Of a stretch of DNA of 26,506 nucleotides, positions 5,860 to 25,743 are shown piece by piece. The notes under the pieces were generated by a model. It worked only from the letters and a program-made list of their open reading frames with translations. It ran no database searches and was not told where the DNA came from. The stretch spans positions 1 to 26,506 of the forward strand of contig JAMOTN010000052.1 of assembly GCA_027062325.1 (NCBI GenBank), read 5' to 3'. A program made the translations under genes and the position numbers. The first letter of the stretch is position 1; the number at the start of each line of letters is the position of its first letter. The DNA is from a bacterium. Its GTDB lineage: Bacteria > JAMOTN01.

Positions 5860-6411
5860 ATGTCTTCAGATTTTAATGCCCAAATTAAAAAGCTTTTAAA
5901 AGAAAATCGTCAAGAAGCAGAGCGCTTAATATATGAGCACTTTATTAACAAAGTTTACGCCTTGATACTGAGGAGTGTAGGAAATCCCAACGTAGCTGAC
6001 GATTTATCTCAAGAAGTATTTATAAAAATTTTTAAAAAAATCTCTTCATTTAACTGGCACTCATCACTTTCAACGTGGATATATACGATAACTGTGAATA
6101 CCGTTCGTGATTACTTCAGACGCCAAAAAACATACAGGAAATTCTTATCATCATGGCTGAAAAAGAGCAAGGTAGTTGAAACGCAAACTCCTGAAAAATC
6201 AATGTTCAAAAACTACACAGAGAATATGCTCAATCAAGCAATTCAAAAACTTCCAGACTCTCTGAAAGAGATTGTGCTTTTATACTATGTAACCAATCTC
6301 TCAATCAAAGAGATAGCAAAAGTCCTAGGTATGAAAGACTCAACCGTTAAGTCTAGGCTAAAAACTGCTCGCCAAAAGTTATTTGAAATGCTCAAAGACA
6401 AACTCAATTGA
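5860..6411 (+). CDS. RNA polymerase sigma factor, ECF subfamily
   Basis: This is a sigma-70 family factor of the extracytoplasmic-function type, about 183 residues, with only regions 2 and 4. Region 2 shows NPNVADDLSQEVFIKIF and STWIYTITVNTVRDYFRR, the usual core-binding and -10 recognition helices. Region 4 shows LPDSLKEIVLLYYVTNLSIKEIA followed by STVKSRLKTAR, the helix-turn-helix that reads the -35 element. ATG 5860 has GGAGG at 5849-5853. The gene starts 37 bases after the ABC ATPase and is followed after 12 bases by a membrane protein that is likely its anti-sigma factor. It could be cotranscribed with the transporter. The signal sensed is unknown. Confidence 0.93.
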   Translation: MSSDFNAQIKKLLKENRQEAERLIYEHFINKVYALILRSVGNPNVADDLSQEVFIKIFKKISSFNWHSSLSTWIYTITVNTVRDYFRRQKTYRKFLSSWLKKSKVVETQTPEKSMFKNYTENMLNQAIQKLPDSLKEIVLLYYVTNLSIKEIAKVLGMKDSTVKSRLKTARQKLFEMLKDKLN

Positions 6412-6423
6412 GGGGGTTTCCAT

Positions 6424-7005
6424 ATGGACAATAAAAACTTAGATGAAAAGCTACATTCCCTTCTAAACAAAACTGATTCTATTCCTCCTGATTGGCGCTA
6501 CTTTAACTTGTACAAACATTTTAAGTTTGTAAAAACCACTTTTAAAATCTCGCTGTTCATAGTACTATTATTATCAATGTTTTTCTCTTTCCAAACCTAC
6601 AAAGTTGGTATTGAAAAGGGAGCAAAAAAGCCCATTCTCTTTACCTCTCCCACAAAGTTTTCATCACGCACTATGATTTTTGAACTTTTGGCAGGATCAA
6701 TGGAATTTTCATTCGTAACCAACACATTTTTCCTGAACAAATCATTTTTAAGTCTTTCCACTTCAAAAGAAGTAACTGTAGTCACTCCTCTACTCACTGC
6801 ACATTTAACCGGTAAAGTAGACTTCGACGTCTTTAAAAATGTTCTCATGCAACTGCACTCTGGAAAAGCAAAAATCTCTCTTAAACACAAGTCGTCATCT
6901 CATTCAAGCCCGCTTAACATAACCAAGCCCTGTATACTAGTGGTAACCGACAGCAGTATCGAGATCAAAAAATACAATCCTGTAAATCTTCGAGCAAACT
7001 ATTAG
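6424..7005 (+). CDS. single-span membrane protein, putative anti-sigma factor (FecR-like)
   Basis: The 193-residue protein has a charged cytoplasmic N-terminus of about 37 residues, one membrane span near residues 38-58, and an external domain of about 130 residues. Part of that domain (VVTPLLTAHLTGKVDFDV then LHSGKAKISL) recalls the beta repeat of FecR-type regulators, which carry a T...G..F.V...V..G.V.V pattern. It lies 12 bases after the ECF sigma gene with AGGGGG at 6411-6416, so the two are translated together. Location and topology, more than sequence, suggest it holds the sigma factor at the membrane. The N-terminal cytoplasmic part is too short for a zinc-type anti-sigma domain and has no cysteines. 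The function is inferred. Confidence 0.6.
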   Translation: MDNKNLDEKLHSLLNKTDSIPPDWRYFNLYKHFKFVKTTFKISLFIVLLLSMFFSFQTYKVGIEKGAKKPILFTSPTKFSSRTMIFELLAGSMEFSFVTNTFFLNKSFLSLSTSKEVTVVTPLLTAHLTGKVDFDVFKNVLMQLHSGKAKISLKHKSSSHSSPLNITKPCILVVTDSSIEIKKYNPVNLRANY

Positions 7006-7103: not shown

Positions 7104-8408
7104 ATGGCAGATAATGTCAATCAAAACGATATAGAAGAACTCCTTAAAATGGCAGGAGAATCAGGAGATGAACCCACTTCTCAAGAAGCTGTATCAGCCC
7201 CTGAAGGAATAGACATATTCTCTGCTCCTGAAACAGCAGAGCAGCCAGAACTAACAGCACTTCAAACACAAAACGAACTCCTGCAGCAACAGCTGGCTGA
7301 AAAAGAAAAAGAGATTGAAGAGCTAAAAAAAGAGCTGGAAGCACTTAAACAGGAAGCAGAAGCTGTCAAATCAGAAAAAGCTGAATTGAGCGAAAAAATT
7401 TCTAAATTAGAAGAGGAAATGGAGCAGTTAAAAGAATCTCAAACACAAACCCCTTCAGAACCTCCAACAGAGCTAACTGAGAAACTTCAATCTCTCGAGC
7501 AAGAAAATAACGAGTTGAAATCAAAGCTTCAAGAATTAGAAGTTAAGATAACTCAACTTGAGACTGAAAAAACTCAACTTTTAACGCAGCTTCAAGAAGC
7601 ACAAAGTCAATCTCAAAGTACAGATACAGAGCTATTAACACAGCTACAGGCAAAAATATCTGAGCTTGAAACTCAAAATTCTCTTCTACAACAACAGATT
7701 GATCTTCTCAATAAGCAACTTCAAGAAAAGCAACTTGCCTTAATAAACGCTGAAGGCAAAATCAGAGAACTGGAAGCACAGGCTGAATCACAAAGTGGAG
7801 GATTCGATGAGACAAAACTTATACAAATTGTAAACACTTTACCTTCAAAAGTAGATGGTTGGGTCAAAAATTTACTTACAACGATTGGCATAGAAACAAT
7901 TGATCCTGTAGGTATGCCGTTCGATCCCAATATAGCAGAACAGGTAGGAGTTGTGCGTATTCCTTCCATGCAAGAAGGAACTGTAGCATCTGTGCAAGAA
8001 GTTGGCTACAAAGTCAACGGAAAACTTATAAAAAAAGCAAAAGTCATAGTAGTAAAAAACTCAATATCCTGTCCAGTCTGCGGATGGCAAATTACTGAAA
8101 ATGCTAAATTCTGCCCCAACTGCGGATCAAAGATTGAAACCAGCACTCAAGATCCCGAAGCATTGGTTGCAGTAGCTGATCTGTTATTCGAAAAAGGTTT
8201 GATCGATAAAGCACTCGAAACATACAAAGAGATTGCTAGCAATAATCCGAATCCAGAAATTACTGTGAAGATTGTGCGTTGTTACGAAAAGTTAGGGCGT
8301 TTTAAAGAAGCTGTTAAAGAAGTAAGTAAGCTCTCAGATGATTGGGCAGATTTGAAGGAGAAGATCACTGCAAAATATGCAATGTATCAGGCACTTTTAA
8401 AACTTTGA
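7104..8408 (+). CDS. coiled-coil / GrpE-like head / zinc-ribbon / TPR-like fusion protein
   Basis: This 434-residue protein has an unusual domain chain. Residues 1-47 are acidic and flexible. Residues 48-228 are heptad-rich coiled coil (L, Q, E and K), broken by a proline-containing stretch near 115-122. Residues 238-318 resemble the GrpE beta head: GIETIDPVGMPFDPN, then GTVASVQEVGYKVNGKLIKK and AKVIVVK, following the GrpE pattern for DnaK nucleotide release. The usual histidine after FDPN is replaced (IAEQ). Next is a four-cysteine zinc ribbon (C323, C326, C337, C340; CPVCG and CPNCG). Residues about 350-410 look like two helical TPR-like repeats (LFEKGLIDKALETYKEI, CYEKLGRFKEAVKEV). Ordinary GrpE is about 180-200 residues. 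There is no dnaK or dnaJ nearby. ATG 7104 has GGAGGG at 7092-7097. It may be a specialised DnaK cofactor or only share the fold. Confidence 0.75.
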   Translation: MADNVNQNDIEELLKMAGESGDEPTSQEAVSAPEGIDIFSAPETAEQPELTALQTQNELLQQQLAEKEKEIEELKKELEALKQEAEAVKSEKAELSEKISKLEEEMEQLKESQTQTPSEPPTELTEKLQSLEQENNELKSKLQELEVKITQLETEKTQLLTQLQEAQSQSQSTDTELLTQLQAKISELETQNSLLQQQIDLLNKQLQEKQLALINAEGKIRELEAQAESQSGGFDETKLIQIVNTLPSKVDGWVKNLLTTIGIETIDPVGMPFDPNIAEQVGVVRIPSMQEGTVASVQEVGYKVNGKLIKKAKVIVVKNSISCPVCGWQITENAKFCPNCGSKIETSTQDPEALVAVADLLFEKGLIDKALETYKEIASNNPNPEITVKIVRCYEKLGRFKEAVKEVSKLSDDWADLKEKITAKYAMYQALLKL

Positions 8409-8462: not shown

Positions 8463-11114
8463 ATGGAGCTTGAAAAGAGTTATGATCATAAAAAGGTTGA
8501 AGTGAAATGGGTCGAATATTGGGAAGAGAAAAAACTATCCACTCCAGAAGTTGCATCTAAATTGGTACCACAAAATGGAGAACGTTTTTGCATAGTTATA
8601 CCCCCTCCAAATGTAACAGGGGTTCTACACATTGGACACGCACTCAACACAACGCTTCAAGATATACTAGTACGTTTTAAAAGGATGCAGGGTTTTAAAA
8701 CACTCTGGATTCCCGGAACTGACCATGCAGGGATAGCCACTCAAAATGTGGTTGAGAGAGAGTTATTGAAAGAAGGAAAGAAAAAGGAGGATCTTGGTAG
8801 GGAAGAATTTTTGAAGCGTGTTTGGAAATGGAAAGAGGAAAAGGGTGGCACCATAATAAAACAACTCAAAGCTCTTGGAGCAAGCTGCGACTGGACTCGC
8901 GAGCGCTTTACAATGTCTGAAAATCTTTCTCGGGCTGTAAGAAAAGTTTTCGCCACCCTTTATAAAAAGGGACTCATATACAAAGGTAAATATATGGTCA
9001 ACTGGTGTCCTCGCTGCAAAACTGCCCTAGCAAATGACGAAGTAGAACACCTCGAGGAAAAGGGAAAACTCTGGTATATAAAATATCCGCTTGAAGATGG
9101 TTCAGGATATGTTGTTGTCGCAACTACACGTCCAGAAACCATGCTTGGAGATACAGCAGTTGCAGTCAATCCAAACGATGAGAGATACTCTCACCTTGTA
9201 GGTAAATTTGTGATCCTCCCCATAATGAACCGTAAAATACCTGTAATCGCAGATGAATTCGTAGATCCAGAATTTGGTACAGGCGTTGTCAAAATAACTC
9301 CTGCACACGATCCAGCTGATTATGAAGCAGGAATAAAGCATGGTTTAGATTTCATCCAAGTCATAGACGAAAATGGAATTATGACAGAGGAAGCAGGGGA
9401 GTTTGCAGGACTCGATAGATACGAAGCGCGTCAAAAGATCGTAGAGCGTCTTGAAAAGGAAGGTCTAATTGAAAAGATCGAAGATTACACCCACGCAGTA
9501 GGCACATGTTATAGATGCAGCACAGTCATAGAGCCGCTTGTCTCCGATCAATGGTTTGTCAAGATGAAGCCACTTGCAGAGAAAGCCATGGAAGCTGTAA
9601 AAAGCGGCAAAATTAAGTTTATCCCGGAGCACTGGGAAAATCTTTACTTCTCTTGGCTTGAGAATATACGCGATTGGTGTATATCGCGTCAAATTTGGTG
9701 GGGACATCGAATCCCCGTCTGGTACTGTCAAGAATGCGGACATTTGAATGTAGCAGAGGAAGATCCAAAGACTTGTGAGAAGTGTGGTAGCTCCAATTTG
9801 GTGCAAGACGATGATGTCCTTGATACATGGTTTTCTTCAGCTCTTTGGCCCTTTTCCACACTTGGATGGCCCGACGAAACAGAGGACCTGAAAGAGTATT
9901 ACCCAACAGATGTTCTCGTAACTGGGTTTGACATCATATATTTCTGGGTTGCCAGAATGATCATGATGGGACTTGAGTTCATGAAAAAAGAGCCCTTCAA
10001 ATATGTTTACCTTCATGCACTAGTTCGCGATGAGTATGGTCGTAAAATGAGCAAATCCTTGGGAAATGCTGTGGATCCACTTGAGATAATCGAAACACAT
10101 GGAGCAGATGCACTTCGTTTCACTCTAGCAGCTCTTGCTATGCAGGGGAGAGACATATTGTTCGCAAAGTCACGTCTTGACGGATACAGAACCTTTCTTA
10201 ACAAAATATGGAATGCAACTAGATTTGTCTTGATAAGGACTGAAGGATATAAACTACACTTTGAAGGAGATATAATCGATTATTTGAACTCTGCAAATCT
10301 AGCTCCAGAAGATAGATGGATACTGAAAGAGCTTGAAAATACTATTAAAAAGGTAACTCAAGACTTGGAAGATTTCCGCTTTGCCCAAGCTGCAAATGCA
10401 ATATACTCATTTTTCTGGGACAAATTCTGTGATTGGTACATAGAATTCTCTAAACTCAGAGAAGACAACGATGCCAAATTAGTACTACTCTTTGTACTTG
10501 CTAGCTCACTTAAGGTACTTCACCCATTCATTCCTTTTATTACTGAAGAGTTATGGCATTATCTTCCAGAGTTTTTAAAGGATCAGAAAGACTTGATAGT
10601 ATCAAGTTGGCCAAAATTTGAGTTTTCTTTTGAAAGTGCTAAGGAGATTGAAGCCGTGATAGAGCTTATAAAGAGCATTAGAACCGCTAGAAGCATTGTG
10701 CAACTCAAACCAAAAGATATCGTTGACGTATTCGTAGAAGTTGAAGAGGGAGATGGGAGATTATTGGAGTTATTCTTTATGGAGAAAGACAAAACCTTAA
10801 AGATGGCAAAGGCAAATCTAAAACGCGGTAAGCCAACAGGAAAATTTGCTGCAAACCCATTTACTTTTGAAGGAACAGTTGTCCAAGTACATTTGGCTCT
10901 TCCAGAAGGCTTTGACACAGCAAGCGTTGTAAAACGTCTTGAAAAGAGATTAAAAGAGGTTGAGAATAATATAAAGAGGAGTGAAGGAAAACTTGCTAAC
11001 GAGAACTTTGTTAAAAAAGCACCTCCATTGGTTGTGGAAAAGGAAAAAACTAAGCTAGAGGAGCTGAAAGCCGAGAAAGAACAACTTGAAAAGGTGTTGG
11101 CAGGGTTGAGATAA
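8463..11114 (+). CDS. valS: valyl-tRNA synthetase
   Basis: This class I synthetase charges tRNA(Val) with valine in the cytoplasm. The 883 residues cover all domains: PPPNVTGVLHIGHA with the HIGH motif (56-59), the CP1 editing domain with TTRPETMLGDTAVAV and GTGVVKITPAHDP, zinc-knuckle cysteine pairs (CPRC; CQEC and CEKC), WCISRQIWWGHRIPVW, and KMSKS at 528-532. The anticodon-binding helical domain follows, and a C-terminal lysine/glutamate coiled coil (from about residue 820) matches the tRNA-binding arm of bacterial ValRS. ATG 8463 has GGAGGG at 8451-8456. The gene lies 54 bases after the GrpE-like gene with no obvious terminator between, and ends before a strong hairpin. Nothing looks broken. 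Confidence 0.98.
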   Translation: MELEKSYDHKKVEVKWVEYWEEKKLSTPEVASKLVPQNGERFCIVIPPPNVTGVLHIGHALNTTLQDILVRFKRMQGFKTLWIPGTDHAGIATQNVVERELLKEGKKKEDLGREEFLKRVWKWKEEKGGTIIKQLKALGASCDWTRERFTMSENLSRAVRKVFATLYKKGLIYKGKYMVNWCPRCKTALANDEVEHLEEKGKLWYIKYPLEDGSGYVVVATTRPETMLGDTAVAVNPNDERYSHLVGKFVILPIMNRKIPVIADEFVDPEFGTGVVKITPAHDPADYEAGIKHGLDFIQVIDENGIMTEEAGEFAGLDRYEARQKIVERLEKEGLIEKIEDYTHAVGTCYRCSTVIEPLVSDQWFVKMKPLAEKAMEAVKSGKIKFIPEHWENLYFSWLENIRDWCISRQIWWGHRIPVWYCQECGHLNVAEEDPKTCEKCGSSNLVQDDDVLDTWFSSALWPFSTLGWPDETEDLKEYYPTDVLVTGFDIIYFWVARMIMMGLEFMKKEPFKYVYLHALVRDEYGRKMSKSLGNAVDPLEIIETHGADALRFTLAALAMQGRDILFAKSRLDGYRTFLNKIWNATRFVLIRTEGYKLHFEGDIIDYLNSANLAPEDRWILKELENTIKKVTQDLEDFRFAQAANAIYSFFWDKFCDWYIEFSKLREDNDAKLVLLFVLASSLKVLHPFIPFITEELWHYLPEFLKDQKDLIVSSWPKFEFSFESAKEIEAVIELIKSIRTARSIVQLKPKDIVDVFVEVEEGDGRLLELFFMEKDKTLKMAKANLKRGKPTGKFAANPFTFEGTVVQVHLALPEGFDTASVVKRLEKRLKEVENNIKRSEGKLANENFVKKAPPLVVEKEKTKLEELKAEKEQLEKVLAGLR

Positions 11115-15914: not shown

Positions 15915-17141
15915 CTATCCCTCCCTCAACTCCATATAAACCTCGTAAGCTGAAGCAAAAGGTTTCAATGCTCTTTCAAATATACCTAAACAATAGGCAA
16001 TAGTCAAACCATAATTAGTTATCGGAACTCCTGCTTCCTTGCATTTTCTAATACGATTCAATATCTGTTTTCTGTTATACATACATCCACCACAGTGTAT
16101 TACCAAAGCGTATTCAGATAAGTTTTCTGGAAAATCAAGCCCCCGAGCAAATTCAAACTCTATTTTTTTCCCTGTGTACTGAACGAGCCAACGAGGAATT
16201 TTTACCGTTCCTATATCATCAGCTATTGGGTGATGCGTACAAGCCTCAGCAATTAAAACTTTATCTCCATCTTTTAAATTTTCAATCGTAAGACACCCTC
16301 GCACAAACTCATCAAGATCCCCTTTAAATCTAGCAAACAATATGGAAAAACTTGTCATAGGTATATCCTCTGGCACATCTGCTGCTACCTTTAAAAACGC
16401 CTGAGAATCTGTAACAACAATTGCAGGCTTTTCTTTGAACAAAGTGAGTGCCCAAGCAAGCTCCCTTTCCTTCACAACGAATGCTGCAGCATCATTATCC
16501 AATAAATCTCTAATTGTCTGAACCTGAGGTAGAATTAGCCTTCCTTTAGGAGCTTCTTTATCAATTGGAACAACTAAAATTGCAAATGAACCAGCAGGCA
16601 CTAAATCACCTATTATAGTATGCTCCAGCAAATCTTTAGGAGCCACATCAATTATCACCTGCTTCAATTCCTCAATTCCTTCCCTTTTCAAAGCAGAGGC
16701 GAAAACCACTCTATCAACACACTTCTGCGCTTTTTCTACTACAGTTTCATTCACTTTATTCACATCTATCTTGTTAAAGACTGCAATTATTGGTACAGCT
16801 CGCTTTTTAAATTCCTTGCATAGCTCCTCTTCCCACTCAGTCCATTCACAATCAGTAACTATAAGAGCCAAATCAGTCTTGTCAAATATGCGTTTTGTCT
16901 TTTTTTGCCGCAATTTCCCAACTTCTCCAGTGTCATCAACTCCAGCTGTATCTATGAAAAGAACAGGTCCCAGTGGCAATAGCTCCATCGGCTTATTAAC
17001 AGGATCAGTCGTAGTTCCCGGATAATCAGCAACAATGGATACCGTCTGATTTACAAATGCATTCAAAAGCGAGGATTTGCCAACATTTCTTCGGCCAAAT
17101 ATCCCTATGTGAAGGCGCACACCTTTGGGAGCACTTTTCAC
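15915..17141 (-). CDS. hydF: [FeFe]-hydrogenase maturation GTPase HydF
   Basis: HydF is the scaffold on which the 2Fe subcluster of the [FeFe]-hydrogenase H-cluster is assembled before transfer to HydA. The N-terminal GTPase domain has GRRNVGKSS (16-24), TTT near 43-45, DTAG (64-67) and NKID (123-126). A dimerisation region follows. The C-terminal iron-sulfur domain has CTH at 301-303 and HCGGC at 349-353, matching the CxH...HCxxC ligand pattern of HydF. The 408-residue length is typical. The start is GTG 17141; AGGTGG about 11 bases upstream overlaps the stop of aspA, so the two are coupled. HydG lies further upstream on the same strand, but hydE and hydA are not in the window. Confidence 0.96.
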
Positions 17142-17156
17142 TGTTTACTACACCAC

Positions 17157-18656
17157 CTATTGATCTACCCCAACACTATTCTTTTTATGACCATTTAAAG
17201 CTTTTATTTTCTCCATCTCCTGCTTTGTGAATCCCAACTTACACACCAATTCAGGCGAGGTAAGTCTATTAAACTCTTCTTTAGAAATTCCTCCTATTTC
17301 CAACACTGCTTCTTTTACTGAAATCCCTTTTTCTTGAGCATACTTTGCAACCTCTGTAGCTTTTTCATAACCTAACACTGGAAGTAGAGCCGTCAAAGAA
17401 GCAGTAGAAGCCGCCACATGTCTCCTGCAAACCTCTACATTTGGCTTTATATCTTCCACGCACCTAGTTGCAAATCTCTCAACAGCATTCCTTAATATCA
17501 TTATTCCATCAAGAAGGGCAAAAGCTATCAAAGGCATGAAATTATTTACCTCTAAATTGCCATTGCTAGCTGCCGTGGTAATCAACGAATCGTAAGCTAT
17601 AAACAACCAAGAAGCTTGCATCACCATTTCTGGAATAACGGGATTAACTTTTCCCGGCATAATTGAAGACCCTGCCTGAACCGCTGGGAGCTTTATCTCA
17701 TTTATTCCAGCATCAGGTCCAGAAGCAAGAAATCGTAAATCATTGGCTATTTTTATCAAATTAGCAGCCAACGTCTTGATTATTCCAGATACCTCAACAA
17801 TCCCATCTTGATTAGCAGTTGCCTCTATCAAATTCTCAGCGCGTGCCAGATTCAGCCCTGTCTCTTGGCGCAACTTTTCTATTATCTTGAATATATAGCG
17901 ACGCGGAGCTCCAATTCCAGTTCCAACAGCCGTTCCTCCAATATTTACTACCCGTATCCTTTCAGAGGCCTTAAATATTCTCCAACGATCACGTGCAAGA
18001 GAATCAGCATATATTGAAAATTCACGTCCCAACGTTATTAATACGGCATCTTGGAGATGGGTTCTTGCAACCTTCACAATATCCGCAAACTCCTTTTCCT
18101 TTTTCTGAAATGCTTCCAGTAATCTAACAACCGAATCTTCAAGTTCCTTTAAAAGCCACAAAGTCGCAATTTTCACAGCTGTGGGGAAAACATCATTAGT
18201 TGATTGATGCATATTCACATGCTCCAATGGAGATATATAGTCATAATCACCAGGATTTCTACCCGCCCTTTTTAAAGCCAAGTTAGCTATTACTTCATTC
18301 ACATTCATATTAAAGCTTGTGCCAGCTCCTCCCTGAAGAGGATCTACCACTACTGCATCAATGTATTTCCCCAAAGAAAGTTCACTTGCTGCCTCCTTTA
18401 TATAGTAAGCTTTTTCAGCATCTAAATATCCTAATTCTTCGTTAACCTCCGCAGCAACTTTCTTTATAACCGCCATAGCTCGGATTAAATACGGATTCGG
18501 CCTATAAGGAGTTACCGAAAAATTCATCAAAGCTCTTTGAGTATGTATTCCCCACAAAATTTCCTTTGGCAATTCCAGTTCACCTATTAAATCTTTTTCA
18601 ACTCTTATTTCTTCAAGCTTCTCTCCTAACTCATCTTCCTTTTTAATAAACTCCAA
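17157..18656 (-). CDS. aspA: aspartate ammonia-lyase
   Basis: Aspartase splits L-aspartate into fumarate and ammonia. The fumarase/aspartase superfamily signature GSSIMPGKVNP lies near residues 330-340. GGAGTSFNMNVNEV and HQSTNDVFPTA form the substrate-binding region, and RTHLQDAVLITLGREF is also conserved. The length of about 500 residues includes a short N-terminal extension. GTG 18665 opens the frame, but AGAGGTG places TTG 18656 at 6 bases, so that start is preferred. It sits between hydG and hydF, an arrangement also known from several anaerobes (memory, not checked here). A role in supplying ammonia or nitrogen for the H-cluster dithiomethylamine bridge is possible but unproven; an ordinary amino-acid fermentation role is equally open. 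An extended -10 promoter lies just upstream. Confidence 0.95.
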   Translation of the reverse strand: MEFIKKEDELGEKLEEIRVEKDLIGELELPKEILWGIHTQRALMNFSVTPYRPNPYLIRAMAVIKKVAAEVNEELGYLDAEKAYYIKEAASELSLGKYIDAVVVDPLQGGAGTSFNMNVNEVIANLALKRAGRNPGDYDYISPLEHVNMHQSTNDVFPTAVKIATLWLLKELEDSVVRLLEAFQKKEKEFADIVKVARTHLQDAVLITLGREFSIYADSLARDRWRIFKASERIRVVNIGGTAVGTGIGAPRRYIFKIIEKLRQETGLNLARAENLIEATANQDGIVEVSGIIKTLAANLIKIANDLRFLASGPDAGINEIKLPAVQAGSSIMPGKVNPVIPEMVMQASWLFIAYDSLITTAASNGNLEVNNFMPLIAFALLDGIMILRNAVERFATRCVEDIKPNVEVCRRHVAASTASLTALLPVLGYEKATEVAKYAQEKGISVKEAVLEIGGISKEEFNRLTSPELVCKLGFTKQEMEKIKALNGHKKNSVGVDQ

Positions 18657-18733
18657 CGCTTTCACCTCTACTTTAACTACTCCACTAACAACCAGTCCTC
18701 TAAAATCTAGAAGTAAAGCTACTCCAGTTAAAT

Positions 18734-18762: not shown

Positions 18763-20172
18763 CTACACATAGACATCTCTCTTTCCCTCACGAACTTTCT
18801 CTAAGAGAGCCTCAACTATTTTCTTCTGTCTTTCATCATAGGTTTTTATTTTATTCTCTATAAACTCCATACCTTTTTGGCGAGTCTTATCACTTGCAAA
18901 ATCTATTAGATATTCAAGAAGGGTACTCATAGCATTCGGTTCACACTTGTACTTTATATCCCCAGGTTTCGCCAGCTCCATGAAATCAAGCCCCGTCCTT
19001 CCCAAACGATAACAGGCTGTACAAAAAGAAGGGGTAAAACCCATATCAAGCAAATCATAAACAACCTCATCCAAAGGCCTGTGATCTCCCAGAGAAAATT
19101 GTGCACCTTTCAAATACTCTTCTTCAGATAAACTGTAACCACCCGGATTTGTACGAGAACCCGCAGAAATCTGAGATATTCCAAGTTTCAAAGCTTCACG
19201 GCGCATCTGAGGATTTTCACGAGTAGACAGAATCATTCCTGTATAAGGAACTGCCAATCTTATTATTGCAACAAGACGCTTAAACTCCTCATCACTCACC
19301 GCGTACGGTGGATTTTCTGAAATAGGAGCACCAACAGCAGGTTCAATCCTTGGAACACTTATAGTATGCGGTCCCATTCCAAAACATTCCTCCAAGTGAT
19401 CTACGTGCATGAATAGTGCAAGCAACTCCCATCTCCAATCGTAAAGTCCAAACAGCACTCCCATTCCAACATCATCAATTCCTGCCTCAAACGCTCTATC
19501 CATAGCCCATAAACGCCACAAATAATCACGCTTAGGACCTGCCACATGAACCTTCTCATACGTCGGCAAATGATAAGTTTCTTGAAAAAGCTGATAGGTT
19601 CCAATGTGATGTTCTTTGAGGGCTTTGAACTCTTCAACTGTCAAAGGAGCGATATTTACATTAATTCGACGTATGTTTATTCCTTCCCCAAGCTTTACAG
19701 AATAGATAGTATCAATAGCTTCAAACACATATTCCAATCCTTTTTCAGGCGGATAAGCCTCCCCTGCTACCAAAAGAACCCTTTTGTGCCCCTGCTTAAG
19801 AAGCTGCTCTATTTCTTTTTTTATCTGCTCCATTGTAAGAGCAGCGCGATCAACATCCTTATTCGAAACACGAAAAGCACAGTACAAACAATCATTCTTA
19901 CAGTAACTGGATATGTAAAGTGGAGCAAATATAACAATTCTATTTCCGTATATCTGCTCCTTTATCCAAAGCGCTGCCTTATAAATCTCATCAACTAATT
20001 CAGGATCTTCTACATTCACCAACACTGCTACATCTTCTAAAGGCAACCTCTCCAAATCTTTAGTTTTAGCTAAAATTTCCCTAACAAGCTTGAAATCCTT
20101 AGCTTTTCTCTTCCCCTCTTCTAACAAAGAATCAATCTTTTCATGATCTATAAAATTGTAAATCTCTGTCAT
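18763..20172 (-). CDS. hydG: [FeFe]-hydrogenase maturation radical SAM tyrosine lyase HydG
   Basis: HydG splits tyrosine with radical SAM chemistry to give p-cresol, CO and cyanide, building the iron-CO-cyanide synthon of the H-cluster. The SAM cluster ligands are C91, C95 and C98 (CKNDCLYC). The accessory C-terminal cluster motif CX2CX22C is present exactly (CTAC, then 22 residues, then C). AGSRTNPGGYSL and GEAYPPEKGLEY also fit the family. At 469 residues the length is typical. ATG 20172 has GGAGG close upstream (GGAGGAGGCGAGACTTATG). A likely promoter lies about 50 bases upstream. About 100 bases separate hydG from aspA. Confidence 0.97.
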   Translation of the reverse strand: MTEIYNFIDHEKIDSLLEEGKRKAKDFKLVREILAKTKDLERLPLEDVAVLVNVEDPELVDEIYKAALWIKEQIYGNRIVIFAPLYISSYCKNDCLYCAFRVSNKDVDRAALTMEQIKKEIEQLLKQGHKRVLLVAGEAYPPEKGLEYVFEAIDTIYSVKLGEGINIRRINVNIAPLTVEEFKALKEHHIGTYQLFQETYHLPTYEKVHVAGPKRDYLWRLWAMDRAFEAGIDDVGMGVLFGLYDWRWELLALFMHVDHLEECFGMGPHTISVPRIEPAVGAPISENPPYAVSDEEFKRLVAIIRLAVPYTGMILSTRENPQMRREALKLGISQISAGSRTNPGGYSLSEEEYLKGAQFSLGDHRPLDEVVYDLLDMGFTPSFCTACYRLGRTGLDFMELAKPGDIKYKCEPNAMSTLLEYLIDFASDKTRQKGMEFIENKIKTYDERQKKIVEALLEKVREGKRDVYV

Positions 20173-20368: not shown

Positions 20369-23329
20369 CTACAAACGAGACTTCCAATCAAGAAACGTAT
20401 CATCCATTTCGTACAAAAATCTAGAAGGCTCTGACAATCTAAAACGTCCATGATAAAAACGACTATTAGCAAAACTAACAAATAACTTCTGACGAGCTCT
20501 TGTCAACGCCACATACATCAACCGTCTTTCTTCTTCTATTTGATCCTCAGTATAACTACGAGAATGCGGCAAGATCCCCTCTTCTGCAGCCACTACAAAT
20601 ACCACATCAAATTCCAACCCCTTGGAAGCGTGTATCGTCATTAAGCTCACACTTGCTCTTTCATCAGTCTCATGAACCAAAGCCATCCTCTCAGCAAATT
20701 CAAGCAGTGAAGCACCTTCCTTTTGAGCTTCAAGAGCATAATCCAGCAATTTATAAACGTTATCAAGTCTTTCATTCCAATCTTTAGGATACTTCGCTTT
20801 CAAATAACTTTCATACTTCGAGTTTTTTAAAACCAATTTCATATAATCGTAAGGCTTACTAGCAGTCTCAACTTTTCTGAAAAATTCCAAGAGTTTCCTC
20901 TGCCGCCCCTTCAGACAACGCTCAATTACCCCTTCAATTCCTCCAAACAAACCATCTTCTTTGAAATTTTCAAGCTCTTTGGCAATTTTCTCAACAGCTT
21001 TTGCTCCAACCCCAACTTTTAAAATTCTAGCTGCTCTCTTCAAAGCCAGCATATCGCGCCTGTTTAAAGTCCAGCGCAAAAAAGAGAGCATATCCTTTAC
21101 CTCTGCTCTATCCCAAAAAGAAGTATCCCCCACTATTCTGTACACTATTCCTCTTTTGGCAAGCTCCCTTTCTAAATCCGCAGATAACCAGTTGACCCTG
21201 TAAAGCACCCCAATACTGTCAAACACATGAGAAAGAATGGATATATTCTCAGCCACAAAAGAGGCTTCTTCTTGGCCCGAATTGAATTCCCAAACTTCAA
21301 CCACTTCAGTTGAAGAGTTATTAGCAACCATCCTTTTAGGAGCACGCATAGTATTATTTTCAATCAAAGAATTTGCCACTTCCACTATTGACTTCGCACT
21401 TCTGTAGTTTTTTGTTAAAAACACCCTCTCCCCACCAAAATCTTTCTCAAACTGCAAAATTTTTTGCCAGTTGGCTCCTCTCCAGGAATATATGGAGTTG
21501 TGAACCACTACACCATTAACAACAAAGTTGTGCACCCCTTTTACCTCAAAATCATAAATTGGCCCTTCATAGCTCTCTATTCCAATACTCTCCACCTTTT
21601 CAGAAACAACTCGGTAATTTTCAGTAGGCACTATCTCCCTTGGAAATACACTTTTACTAGATTTATCAGATTGCTTTTCCACACGCGTTATCAACCCAAT
21701 AAAGCTTCCATTATTCAAATGAGGCTTTACCTCATTCAAAACTCCTTCTTCAACAACAGCAACTTCCATTCCCTTCCTAATGTGCGAAGCTGGCATAAGA
21801 ATAAAAGGCACATTATCTATCAATTTTGCAGCAACAAATAGGTAGGAATCAGATACTGTTGTCGCGGTTTTGGCAAAATCATACAACTTTTTAAAATCAT
21901 ATTGCTCCGATTCATCAACAAGAGCCCAACTTTTATCCCCATGCGAAAAATAAACTGCATGGTGCATTATCCCACCACGCTTTGAATCAAACATGCAAAC
22001 CATAACATATTTAGCCTTTTCCCCAATTGCAACAAAGTGTGGTTCCTCTTCAAATAACAGTTTATCCTGCATAAATTGCCTTGCATTCTCCTCAAGAGAG
22101 ATTGACGCATAAAACTCATCTATTAAATCTTGAGTAATCTTACTGTCCTCCCCCGCTTCAAAAGGCAGGACAGGCAAACCATATTTTACAGAGTAGTGAT
22201 ACATCGTAATAAGTGCTTCTCGATATGTGTCAAATACATCCACGATCCAAACTTTCGAAGCTTGCTCTAATCCCTTTCTCTCCCCTTTCAGATACCAAAA
22301 TGGCTTCTCAACCGCTAAACGCCAACCAACTTTTCTTTTGTACTTCAACATGACCCCCCAACCAGCAGTTGTTGGGATAAACCTCACCCAAATTTTGTGG
22401 TTAGGAGTTACCCTTATTCTTTTTCCAAATTCTGTCTCTATAGCAATTACTTTACCGGCGTATGCATCTACACTAACCTTGGACACCTCAAATCTCCCAA
22501 CTTCAGAATTTCCGGCAGCAGCTATAACATATTCATATTCACGCAAATCTGCAACATTTTTCTTTCCAGAAGACGTAAGTATTTCCCCTTCTACAACGCA
22601 CTGATCATCATCACCAACAACCATTATGGTATCTGCATCACGAGCAAGCTCTTTTACTATTCTGTATTGAATTTCATTAATATCTTGGTACTCATCAACA
22701 AGAACATGCTTAAATTTATGAGGTATTCCCTTTTTTAAAAGTTCAAGTCCCTTTTTTAGCAAATCTGCAAAATCAAGATAGTTATTTGCTTTTTTTACCT
22801 TCTCATACTCAAGCAGTAAATCAGCATACACAGCATAATACGGATCATCTTTTGCATCTTTCAACTCTTGTGAAAGAGTATTGTAAATGAAAGCAAGTTT
22901 AGATCCCTTCTCGTCTAAATTGGCTTTTTTTAAAATCTCATCGAACAGTTGAATCTGCTCATACTCATCTATTATTGTGAAGTTGTAGTTTACTCCAATC
23001 AAATGCCCCCATTTTCTTAAAATTTTTGCACAAAACGAATGAAAAGTTGATAACCAAATTTTATCAACTCCACTTAATCCAAGCCCCTCTACTCGCTCCT
23101 TCATCTCACGAGCAGCTTTGTTTGTAAAAGTCAAACCAACTATGGACTCTGGAGAAACTCCATTTACCAAAAGATAGGCAATTCTGTAAGTAATTACCCT
23201 AGTTTTTCCACTTCCTGCCCCTGCAAATACAACTAAACTCCTTCCAGAATAAAATACTGCCTTTTGCTGCTCATCATTCAGAAGAGCTTTTATTTTATCT
23301 ACAACCTCTTCTCTCTGTAATTCCAGCAA
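20369..23329 (-). CDS. UvrD/PcrA-type DNA helicase containing an intein
   Basis: This is a superfamily 1A 3'-5' helicase acting in repair and replication-fork maintenance. The N-terminal Q motif (LNDEQQKAV), Walker A AGAGSGKT, TFTNKAAREM, LSTFHSFCAKILR, VDEYQD (motif II) and VGDDDQ with SIYSWRGA (motif III) are clear. LMTIHASKGLEFDVVFV and YVALTRARQKLFVSF (motifs V and VI) close the helicase. A 368-residue intein splits motif III. Without it the helicase is about 618 residues, shorter than most PcrA (about 720), as the usual C-terminal tail is missing. The frame opens with TTG 23371, but GGAGG at the end of the upstream gene puts TTG 23329 at about 7 bases, giving MLELQREEVV, so 23329 is used. 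The gene overlaps the ribohydrolase stop region and ends before a terminator. Confidence 0.95.
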   Translation of the reverse strand: MLELQREEVVDKIKALLNDEQQKAVFYSGRSLVVFAGAGSGKTRVITYRIAYLLVNGVSPESIVGLTFTNKAAREMKERVEGLGLSGVDKIWLSTFHSFCAKILRKWGHLIGVNYNFTIIDEYEQIQLFDEILKKANLDEKGSKLAFIYNTLSQELKDAKDDPYYAVYADLLLEYEKVKKANNYLDFADLLKKGLELLKKGIPHKFKHVLVDEYQDINEIQYRIVKELARDADTIMVVGDDDQCVVEGEILTSSGKKNVADLREYEYVIAAAGNSEVGRFEVSKVSVDAYAGKVIAIETEFGKRIRVTPNHKIWVRFIPTTAGWGVMLKYKRKVGWRLAVEKPFWYLKGERKGLEQASKVWIVDVFDTYREALITMYHYSVKYGLPVLPFEAGEDSKITQDLIDEFYASISLEENARQFMQDKLLFEEEPHFVAIGEKAKYVMVCMFDSKRGGIMHHAVYFSHGDKSWALVDESEQYDFKKLYDFAKTATTVSDSYLFVAAKLIDNVPFILMPASHIRKGMEVAVVEEGVLNEVKPHLNNGSFIGLITRVEKQSDKSSKSVFPREIVPTENYRVVSEKVESIGIESYEGPIYDFEVKGVHNFVVNGVVVHNSIYSWRGANWQKILQFEKDFGGERVFLTKNYRSAKSIVEVANSLIENNTMRAPKRMVANNSSTEVVEVWEFNSGQEEASFVAENISILSHVFDSIGVLYRVNWLSADLERELAKRGIVYRIVGDTSFWDRAEVKDMLSFLRWTLNRRDMLALKRAARILKVGVGAKAVEKIAKELENFKEDGLFGGIEGVIERCLKGRQRKLLEFFRKVETASKPYDYMKLVLKNSKYESYLKAKYPKDWNERLDNVYKLLDYALEAQKEGASLLEFAERMALVHETDERASVSLMTIHASKGLEFDVVFVVAAEEGILPHSRSYTEDQIEEERRLMYVALTRARQKLFVSFANSRFYHGRFRLSEPSRFLYEMDDTFLDWKSRL
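21497..22600 (-). other. intein inserted in helicase motif III
   Basis: The translated insert starts at Cys (codon 22600-22598) after GDDDQ and ends with VVHN (Asn codon 21499-21497), followed by Ser of SIYSWRGA. It is 368 residues, in frame and without stops. Splicing blocks are visible: block A CVVEGEILTSSGKKNVADL, block B RVTPNHKIWV with the TxxH pattern, block F GPIYDFEVKGVHNFVVN, and block G VVVHN with +1 Ser. All splicing residues (Cys1, TxxH, His-Asn, +1 Ser) are intact, so it should excise. The central 230 residues show no LAGLIDADG or HNH motif by eye. They contain an EA...YGLPVLPF segment which, from memory, resembles large inteins at this helicase site in other bacteria. Confidence 0.92.
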
Positions 23330-23331
23330 CG

Positions 23332-24270
23332 TTACTCCTCCTTCTCCGCCAACATATTGGCAATTTTCCAAGCCATTGAAGAATATTCAAACTCAACATC
23401 CTCATCAAACTTTAGCTCTTTCCCTCCAAGCCCTATTAATACACCCGATAGTATAGCAACAGCAGGTAAGTCTGCCCCAACATCTGAGGCTATTCTATAC
23501 ATTTTATCCTCAAATTCAGCACTGTCACTTGCACTTGAAGCTACCACAAGTGATAAAGGAACAGCACTGTATATACTCTCATCATTTCCTATCATAACAT
23601 CAATCTTTTCCCAATCAGGATCTTTTAAAAATGCTCGTGCTCTCCTAAAATAATCTCTCCACATCCCTGTTGAGCTCTCTGCAAAATTATCCAAGCACTG
23701 AGCCGGTGTCAAACCGTCCCACACAAGATGCATCGCTGTTAAGTAATACGCAACTCCCTTCCACACATCCTCCATAGAGGTAAAATTTGATGCAAAAAAC
23801 ATTGCAACCTCAACAAGAGTTTCAGGATCCTCTATGAAGTAAAGAGCAGGAATTATAGCAGGAAAAATAACTGCTGCCACAAAGCTATCACGAATGGCAT
23901 CCTCAACAGCAGCACCTCTCTTAATGTAAAAACCAAAGTTCAAAAGCGAAGAATCTGGATACCTAAGCTCCTTCTCAAAATCCTCATACCAACTTCCTAA
24001 AGCTATTCCAAAGTCGTCAACTGTAAAATTTCCCGGCATTTTGTCTAAAAACTGATTACCCACGTGAAACATCACACGCACATATTCACTTGCATCACCT
24101 TTTCTTAAAAAACCCAAAGGGGAGGTTGGATACTTGGCAAATCTTCCTTCTTCTTTTACAAACTTTACTATATCCGCGTAAGGAACATCTATAAATCCAT
24201 TTACCAACGCATCAGCTACAACAGCATTTTTTAAAGCTGCTTCATATTTGTGGTATTTATCAAAATCCAT
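23332..24270 (-). CDS. ADP-ribosylglycohydrolase-fold protein, degenerate active site
   Basis: The 312-residue all-helical protein follows the ADP-ribosylglycohydrolase (ARH/DraG) layout: ALKNAVVADALVNGF at the N-terminus, IFPAIIPALYFIEDPE in the middle and VGADLPAVAILSGVLIGLGG near residues 264-283, where active members have GGDTDT...GALLGA. Active ARH enzymes bind two Mg ions through SDDT near residue 60 and DTDT near the C-terminus. Here the first site reads GDASEYVRVM and the second VGADLPAVA, so most metal ligands are lost. It may bind ADP-ribose without cleaving it, or have a new role; a misassignment is possible. ATG 24270 has GGAGGG six bases upstream. Its stop overlaps the ribosome site of uvrD, so the two are coupled. 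Confidence 0.65.
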   Translation of the reverse strand: MDFDKYHKYEAALKNAVVADALVNGFIDVPYADIVKFVKEEGRFAKYPTSPLGFLRKGDASEYVRVMFHVGNQFLDKMPGNFTVDDFGIALGSWYEDFEKELRYPDSSLLNFGFYIKRGAAVEDAIRDSFVAAVIFPAIIPALYFIEDPETLVEVAMFFASNFTSMEDVWKGVAYYLTAMHLVWDGLTPAQCLDNFAESSTGMWRDYFRRARAFLKDPDWEKIDVMIGNDESIYSAVPLSLVVASSASDSAEFEDKMYRIASDVGADLPAVAILSGVLIGLGGKELKFDEDVEFEYSSMAWKIANMLAEKEE

Positions 24271-25140: not shown

Positions 25141-25743
25141 CTATATCTCATCATCCAAGTATTCTTCCTCATCTTCTTCATTTTCTTCGTCTTCCTCAGT
25201 CTCAACATCATCAACCTCTTCCTCATCCTCTCCTATAACTTTTCCTTCTTCCTCTTCCTCATCTATATCTATCTCTTCAATATCTTCATCTATTATCTCT
25301 TCCCCTTCTATTCCCTCTATTTGGGAGTAATCTACAAGTTCAAATTCCCCAGGACGTAATATATCAAATTCATCTCCTAAAAGTTCTTTCAACTCTTCCA
25401 TTCCAACGAGTTTTCCTTTGTCCTTACTCATCTTTTCAAAGTAATCCTTTAGAAAAGAAAAATCAATTGTTGGATCTTCCATTATCAAACGTGCTGCAAA
25501 TTCAACATACTTGTCCTCTCGTGGATCAAATCCCTTAAAAAGCTTATCGTATTCGTAATCAATAGGCTCATCTCCAAAATGCATATCCCTTTTCCTCTTT
25601 TCCCATTCGTAAACTTTCCTGTGAATCTGCTTGGCTTTTCTGGCAATCAACAAAATCAACAAATACTTATTTGGCACTTTCTCCAACAACCTATCCAATG
25701 TGTACTTATTCATTCCAACCTCATTGTCAAATGGTGAAATCAA
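25141..25743 (-). CDS. rpoZ: RNA polymerase omega subunit, divergent and with long acidic tail
   Basis: Residues about 13-41 (YTLDRLLEKVPNKYLLILL then IARKAKQIH) match the omega N-terminal helix with the conserved K(I/V)xxKYxLVxxxARRARQ pattern. KYVEFAARLIMEDPTIDF (about 78-95) fits the second conserved block, but 35 extra residues lie between them. Omega helps assemble and stabilise the core enzyme through beta-prime. Usual omega proteins are 60-100 residues; this one is 200. Residues 143-200 hold 38 Asp/Glu out of 58 and should be disordered. TTG 25743 has GGAGGGG seven bases upstream and is chosen; ATG 25713 with GAGG is an alternative. It follows the membrane-protein gene directly (2 bases between stop and start). 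Not adjacent to gmk, its usual partner. Confidence 0.75.
   Translation of the reverse strand: MISPFDNEVGMNKYTLDRLLEKVPNKYLLILLIARKAKQIHRKVYEWEKRKRDMHFGDEPIDYEYDKLFKGFDPREDKYVEFAARLIMEDPTIDFSFLKDYFEKMSKDKGKLVGMEELKELLGDEFDILRPGEFELVDYSQIEGIEGEEIIDEDIEEIDIDEEEEEGKVIGEDEEEVDDVETEEDEENEEDEEEYLDDEI

Follow-up and report, generated by a model that had tools for sequence, protein, structure and literature searches.

The closest described relative of the protein reported here is GrpE (PF01025), the nucleotide exchange factor of DnaK, with which it shares the sequence and fold of the beta-wing, a long N-terminal helix and a disordered, acidic N-terminus. GrpE is, however, without the zinc ribbon and TPR tail found at the C-terminus of our protein, which also has a much longer coil and a reduced hairpin; its gene moreover lies outside the hrcA/dnaJ cluster, as a second copy beside a normal GrpE. 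Among structures in the PDB, the best sequence match is human mitochondrial GrpEL1 (9blt_B, E 1.1e-6), which has the FDP wing loop in common with our protein but, again, neither ribbon nor TPR. In eukaryotes, the BAG-family of exchange factors combine an Hsp70-binding module with varied targeting domains, and are believed to enlist Hsp70 for particular jobs (PMC4753570); the likeness here is one of analogy only, as fold and origin are unrelated. A link to the conflict system built from GrpE plus Hsp70 (PMC7159879) was considered and rejected, the GrpE genes there being separate and in other contexts.

The gene in question sits within a 26,506-nt stretch of DNA (the ‘window’, taken at its full length) and encodes a GrpE-domain protein of 434 amino acids with a new, conserved architecture, GrpE itself being known. 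Its parts, together with the neighbouring valS gene, are as follows:

7104–8408 (+): gene for the coiled-coil / GrpE-wing / zinc-ribbon / TPR protein, 434 aa; open ORF with ATG start, Pfam domains, and a full-length homologue with identical domain order
7122–7154 (+): FliM/FliY-like (EIDALL-type) N-terminal helix, residues 7–17, QNDIEELLKMA; DNA pattern, helix 8–17 in the model
7155–7241 (+): acidic linker, residues 18–46, predicted disordered; pLDDT <50 at 18–44
7242–7448 (+): coiled-coil helix 1, residues 47–115; heptad a/d hydrophobicity, helix in the model
7464–7793 (+): coiled-coil helix 2, residues 121–230, with a register shift near 164–174; heptad analysis, model
7809–7883 (+): shortened GrpE-type short-helix hairpin, residues 236–260, about 25 residues less than canonical; alignments, model helices, VIA
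7887–8057 (+): GrpE beta-wing, residues 262–318; PF01025 E 5.9e-14, Foldseek 1dkg_A E 1.3e-5
8070–8132 (+): zinc ribbon, residues 323–343, Cys 323/326/337/340; Zn_Ribbon_1 E 8.5e-9, four Cys invariant in the family
8154–8402 (+): TPR-type helical tail, residues 351–433, with a long terminal helix; TPR_19 E 3.4e-8, five helices, pLDDT ~90
8463–11114 (+): valS, 54 nt downstream of the GrpE-type gene; order conserved with Riflebacteria

A preliminary description of this locus had proposed an acidic leader, a single coil of 180 residues, a GrpE-like head, a ribbon and a TPR-like tail, in an order unlike that of ordinary GrpE. Pfam matches and the predicted fold bear out this general layout, with some corrections: the coil consists of two helices in the model and, by heptad analysis, of three heptad registers, with breaks near residues 111–121 and 164–174, and the acidic leader opens with a FliM-like peptide, NQNDIEELLKMA. 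Of the domains, the GrpE profile matches residues 255–318 (52.5 bits against a cut-off of 25.8, E 5.9e-14), thus falling inside the segment, 238–318, in which such a hit had been anticipated; Zn_Ribbon_1 at 323–343 (E 8.5e-9) and TPR_19 at 361–412 (E 3.4e-8) both likewise score above their cut-offs. The FDP and GY..NGK..K.AKVIVVK strings previously picked out in the head are present. Coverage of the GrpE profile is confined to its positions 102–165 (of 165), such that the full dimerising short-helix, or four-helix-bundle, region of GrpE is not seen in the window protein, and alignments show that some 25 residues of the ordinary short-helix hairpin are absent between coil and wing. The protein also misses all of the NCBIfam equivalog cut-offs for GrpE, its best score being 44.9 bits against 212.

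An AlphaFold model of the last 210 residues, calculated with three ordinary GrpEs in the alignment, has a mean pLDDT of 78.6, rising to ~87 for the wing and ~90 for the TPR part. The GrpE beta head expected of this region is recovered, with Foldseek placing E. coli GrpE (1dkg) first (E 1.3e-5); superposition with VIA on 1dkg_B gives a Z of 11.4 and an rmsd of 2.5, with 95 residues aligned to residues 74–195. That 95 residues of the model cover 122 of 1dkg_B agrees with the shortening of the hairpin. In a model of the full-length protein the helices, including an N-terminal helix at 8–17, and the TPR tail are again predicted, but confidence for most of the wing drops to pLDDT <50 (about 35–50); the assignment of the wing fold therefore rests on the C-terminal model and the profile match.

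The wing was compared with 62 ordinary GrpE wings and 29 wings of the Riflebacteria family described below. Nearly all of these share G301, Y302 and V314, each of which the window protein keeps, as it does V316. The two valines are the equivalents of V190 and V192 in E. coli GrpE, so that the fold-critical wing residues, and the GY pair, are retained; function is lost in the E. coli protein with V192A, and in AtCGE1 when the equivalent of V190 is mutated (PMC6987454). Other positions have changed: A278 stands where histidine is common (49 of 62 ordinary wings and all 29 of the family wings), Q280 where alanine is common (57/62), K310 where arginine is common (58/62, with lysine in most family wings), and K311 where ordinary wings often carry proline (38/62). 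For human GrpEL1, it is the short helices that supply the bulk of contacts with the nucleotide-binding domain of Hsp70, which A177 also touches (PMC11685456); these helices belong to the region that is shortened in the window protein. A177 corresponds to position 280 of the window protein, where glutamine is found instead; D171 and P172, which contact mortalin, are kept as D274 and P275.

The 434-aa protein starts MADNVNQNDIEELLKMAGESG and the host's own FliM begins MDEELQKILGQEDIDKLIEAAAKG (the FliM start being quoted as ...GQEDIDKLIEAAAKG). The CheY-binding site of FliM/FliY contains an EIDALL motif (PMC9126983); with this peptide the window protein shares QNDIEELL at its extreme N-terminus, followed by a disordered linker, the remainder of the two proteins being unrelated. 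Searching the host genome with a degenerate DNA pattern for Q[DN][DE]I[DE]xLL gives two matches, one in the window gene and one in FliY, and the reversed pattern gives none; shuffles of the window contained none, with 0 expected.

The host assembly (1.65 Mb, 84% complete) is the sole genome of its phylum in our collection. Contig 44 carries an ordinary grpE within the run groES, groEL, hrcA, grpE, chemoreceptor gene, dnaJ, and the one dnaK of the genome is found on contig 65, the GrpE-type gene of the window not being near it. Looking for a normal grpE beside dnaK, as the preliminary description advised, thus turns up the gene but on a different contig from dnaK (44 as opposed to 65). Since a normal hrcA–grpE pair and the single dnaK sit elsewhere, the window gene is a paralogue of the housekeeping GrpE. 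A normal grpE is similarly found in 13 of 14 Riflebacteria genomes checked which, together with that of the host itself, would leave the paralogue free to specialise.

Relatives with the complete architecture came from a search of 386 genomes with the wing plus ribbon as query, which gave a single full-length homologue (438 residues) in which coil, short hairpin, wing, ribbon and TPR follow one another as in the window protein; several apparent matches to wing plus ribbon (L018, L026) were dropped because they cross stop codons. A profile made from this homologue and the window protein then matched members in 34 out of 39 genomes in one other phylum, and many of these genomes carry a further copy that has diverged more. 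That phylum is the uncultured Candidatus Riflebacteria, an identification that depends on one genome agreeing with Candidatus Riflebacteria bacterium AS27yjCOA_28 in the contig and position of its matches. At E 1e-20 in a 380-genome sample the same 34 genomes were matched and none of the roughly 341 outside Riflebacteria, although divergent members could be missed here because only seven candidates were scored per genome. The search for homologues by domain architecture that had been proposed for this protein therefore shows its design to be that of a conserved family, as opposed to the product of a chance fusion. Other searches returned more ordinary proteins: the C-terminal 201 residues, run against genome contigs, found proteins that join SPFH to a zinc ribbon, ribbons on their own and ordinary GrpEs, with no family members; a single-sequence query against one genome per family across the domain gave GrpE-only matches; and viral contigs and phage records yielded no relatives. 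Neither Pfam nor NCBIfam holds a model specific to a GrpE/coil/ribbon/TPR family, and the open-licence literature returned nothing on GrpE in Riflebacteria or on a protein combining GrpE, zinc ribbon and coiled coil.

The Riflebacteria proteins resemble the window protein in domain order, can be aligned with it over wing, ribbon and TPR, and in most cases share the order with valS. They differ in having, for the most part, a longer hairpin, and at the N-terminus, where a conserved motif, EFFKKLNQQIVQKDNLIKLLQLQI, stands instead of the FliM-like peptide; any link of the window protein to CheY would, because of this other motif, probably be special to its own lineage. Members range from ~440 to >700 residues, the variation lying mostly in the coil; the order of coil, wing, Cys4 ribbon and TPR is that of the window protein, and the four ribbon cysteines are invariant. 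Many match GrpE over nearly the whole profile (4–164 in L162, 11–163 in L147 and 7–165 in G420), though part of such matches falls in the coil and may be compositional. As the matched region includes the helical part, the family appears to have kept the GrpE domain.

Several lines of evidence bear on whether the window protein and this family descend from one ancestor. A family HMM built without the window sequence scores the window protein at 89.7 bits over residues 252–425 of the frame (wing, ribbon and TPR), as compared to 64.5 bits for the best ordinary GrpE and 27.6 for the host's own GrpE. In a tree of the wing only, the window protein shares one side with the family (SH-aLRT 84, unstarred and short of firm), the ordinary GrpE of the host clusters with four such proteins from Riflebacteria (96, starred), and the arrangement that joins the window protein to its own GrpE is not rejected (p-AU 0.078). 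H278 and E297, each invariant in the 29 Riflebacteria wings, are replaced by alanine and valine in the window protein; having been derived from Riflebacteria alone, they are marks of a subgroup, and membership of the whole family need not depend on them. Common descent has its best support in the shared architecture, the wing tree being only consistent with it.

The surroundings of the gene are partly shared. In Riflebacteria, valS lies directly downstream of 20 of 30 copies, with one further copy separated from it by a single gene. A recent joint transfer of the gene with valS is not favoured: the window ValRS (51% to G118, 56% to G010) is nearer to other lineages, and the Riflebacteria enzymes not being its closest relatives argues against such an event. 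In other lineages (L224, L232, L236, L243) the gene directly before valS encodes a response regulator of the CheY type, whose middle is long and acidic and whose charged, amphipathic C-terminus is reminiscent of PopZ. Elsewhere in Riflebacteria the family gene of f259 lies between dxs and pilT, with pilT directly downstream (4/4 genomes). For the second paralogue, in f119, about 10 of 15 informative loci include a Tad-type ATPase no more than four genes away, mostly together with T2SSF. The names pilT and Tad are inferred from matches to T2SSE, CbiA, T2SSF and N_methyl, a Tad-type ATPase being a T2SSE protein with a CbiA/ParA-type domain. Loci of the second paralogue (L184, L185, L260, L262–L267, L274) feature a fused ParA-type/T2SSE ATPase, T2SSF and often a pilin-like cluster. 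No pilus genes are linked to the window gene itself.

On its upstream side, the window gene is preceded by an ECF sigma factor (5860–6411, +) and, between the two, a short membrane-anchored protein with no Pfam matches that is likely an anti-sigma factor (6424–7005, +); scans for promoters and terminators returned nothing useful near the GrpE-type gene. Further afield, the window carries a PolC-type DNA polymerase III (22–2646, +), in a genome that stands alone in its phylum in our collection; replicases of this type are typical of Firmicutes and Thermotogae. Genes for the [FeFe]-hydrogenase maturation proteins HydF and HydG (15915–17141 and 18763–20172, both –; equivalog-level matches) flank an aspartate ammonia-lyase gene (17157–18665, –). 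There follow a PcrA/UvrD-type helicase of 1000 aa (20369–23371, –) with an intein after its GDDDQ motif (Intein_splicing E 2.1e-14, residues 285–625), an ADP-ribosylglycohydrolase-like protein (23332–24270, –; a weak match, E 1.2e-7), and a small protein (25141–25743, –) with a marginal match to RNA polymerase omega/Rpb6 and an unusually long, acidic C-terminal Glu/Asp tail.

With regard to function, the preliminary description had suggested either a dedicated Hsp70 exchange adaptor or a fold borrowed for another task. That this is a second, paralogous GrpE-type protein, and one from a conserved family, is confirmed, whereas the choice between the two is not decided by our data; binding of ribosomes by the tail, also suggested, found no support. 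Our preference, held tentatively, is for a DnaK-docking coiled-coil adaptor that binds a partner through ribbon and TPR: a lineage-specific GrpE paralogue, belonging to an unnamed family shared with Riflebacteria. The coil would make the protein a dimer. Like that of GrpE, the wing would contact the cell's DnaK at its nucleotide-binding domain and so promote the release of ADP, or at the least bring DnaK in; ribbon and TPR tail would be the binding site for a partner or for a client, and the N-terminal peptide that for a CheY-like receiver or some other protein. DnaK would in this way act at a particular site or machine, with a pilus or flagellum as plausible examples, and bulk folding would be left to the normal GrpE. 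It is the near-complete GrpE domain of the Riflebacteria members that favours an adaptor, as do the wing's profile match and fold, its retained fold-critical residues, the presence of a normal grpE, an architecture conserved across two phyla and the pilus contexts; given how often the family is found beside pilus genes, it may connect the Hsp70 chaperone, or a partner, with machinery of the cell. Counting against an adaptor are the shortened hairpin and changed wing positions of the window protein, the distance of its gene from dnaK, the low confidence of the wing in the full-length model and the lack of pilus linkage for the window gene.

Only a little less likely is that the fold has been repurposed, the wing no longer engaging DnaK but serving as a dimerisation or docking module in a cytoplasmic coiled-coil scaffold that would use N-terminal peptide, ribbon and TPR to organise pilus, Tad or flagellar partners. 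This reading is favoured by the shorter hairpin and altered wing contacts of the window protein, and also by family-specific invariant residues unlike those of normal GrpE, the pilus-linked contexts in Riflebacteria, a coil that accounts for most of the spread in member length, and a FliM-like N-terminus that, in the host genome, is otherwise found only in flagellar switch proteins. Against it stand the near-complete GrpE domain that profiles detect in Riflebacteria members and the conservation of the fold-critical wing residues.

More specific, and improbable as a whole, is an adaptor from chaperone to motility, in which a dimer docked on DnaK by its wing would use the FliM-like peptide, ribbon and TPR to place Hsp70 action at flagellar or pilus machines and couple it to CheY-type signalling. 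A translation-linked role with valyl-tRNA synthetase or the ribosome, as the proximity and repeated adjacency of valS might imply, we judge quite unlikely: valS is not a neighbour of the f259 and f265 members or of the second paralogue, the window ValRS has closer relatives than those of Riflebacteria, and the slot before valS is taken in other lineages by the unrelated response-regulator genes, making neighbourhood alone a weak guide. That the gene is a chance fusion, an assembly artefact or a decaying copy in one genome is scarcely credible, for whilst the assembly is incomplete, from the only genome sampled of its phylum, and some family-invariant residues are missing, the frame is intact and a full-length homologue with identical domain order exists in another phylum, where the family is widespread.

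Bacterial GrpE is usually regarded as a stand-alone helper with a single job. A family of paralogues in which a GrpE head is welded to targeting domains would be the bacterial counterpart of the strategy that eukaryotes follow with BAG domains, and would give a concrete, testable candidate for localised control of Hsp70; should the wing prove not to bind DnaK, the family would instead provide an example of a co-chaperone fold turned scaffold.
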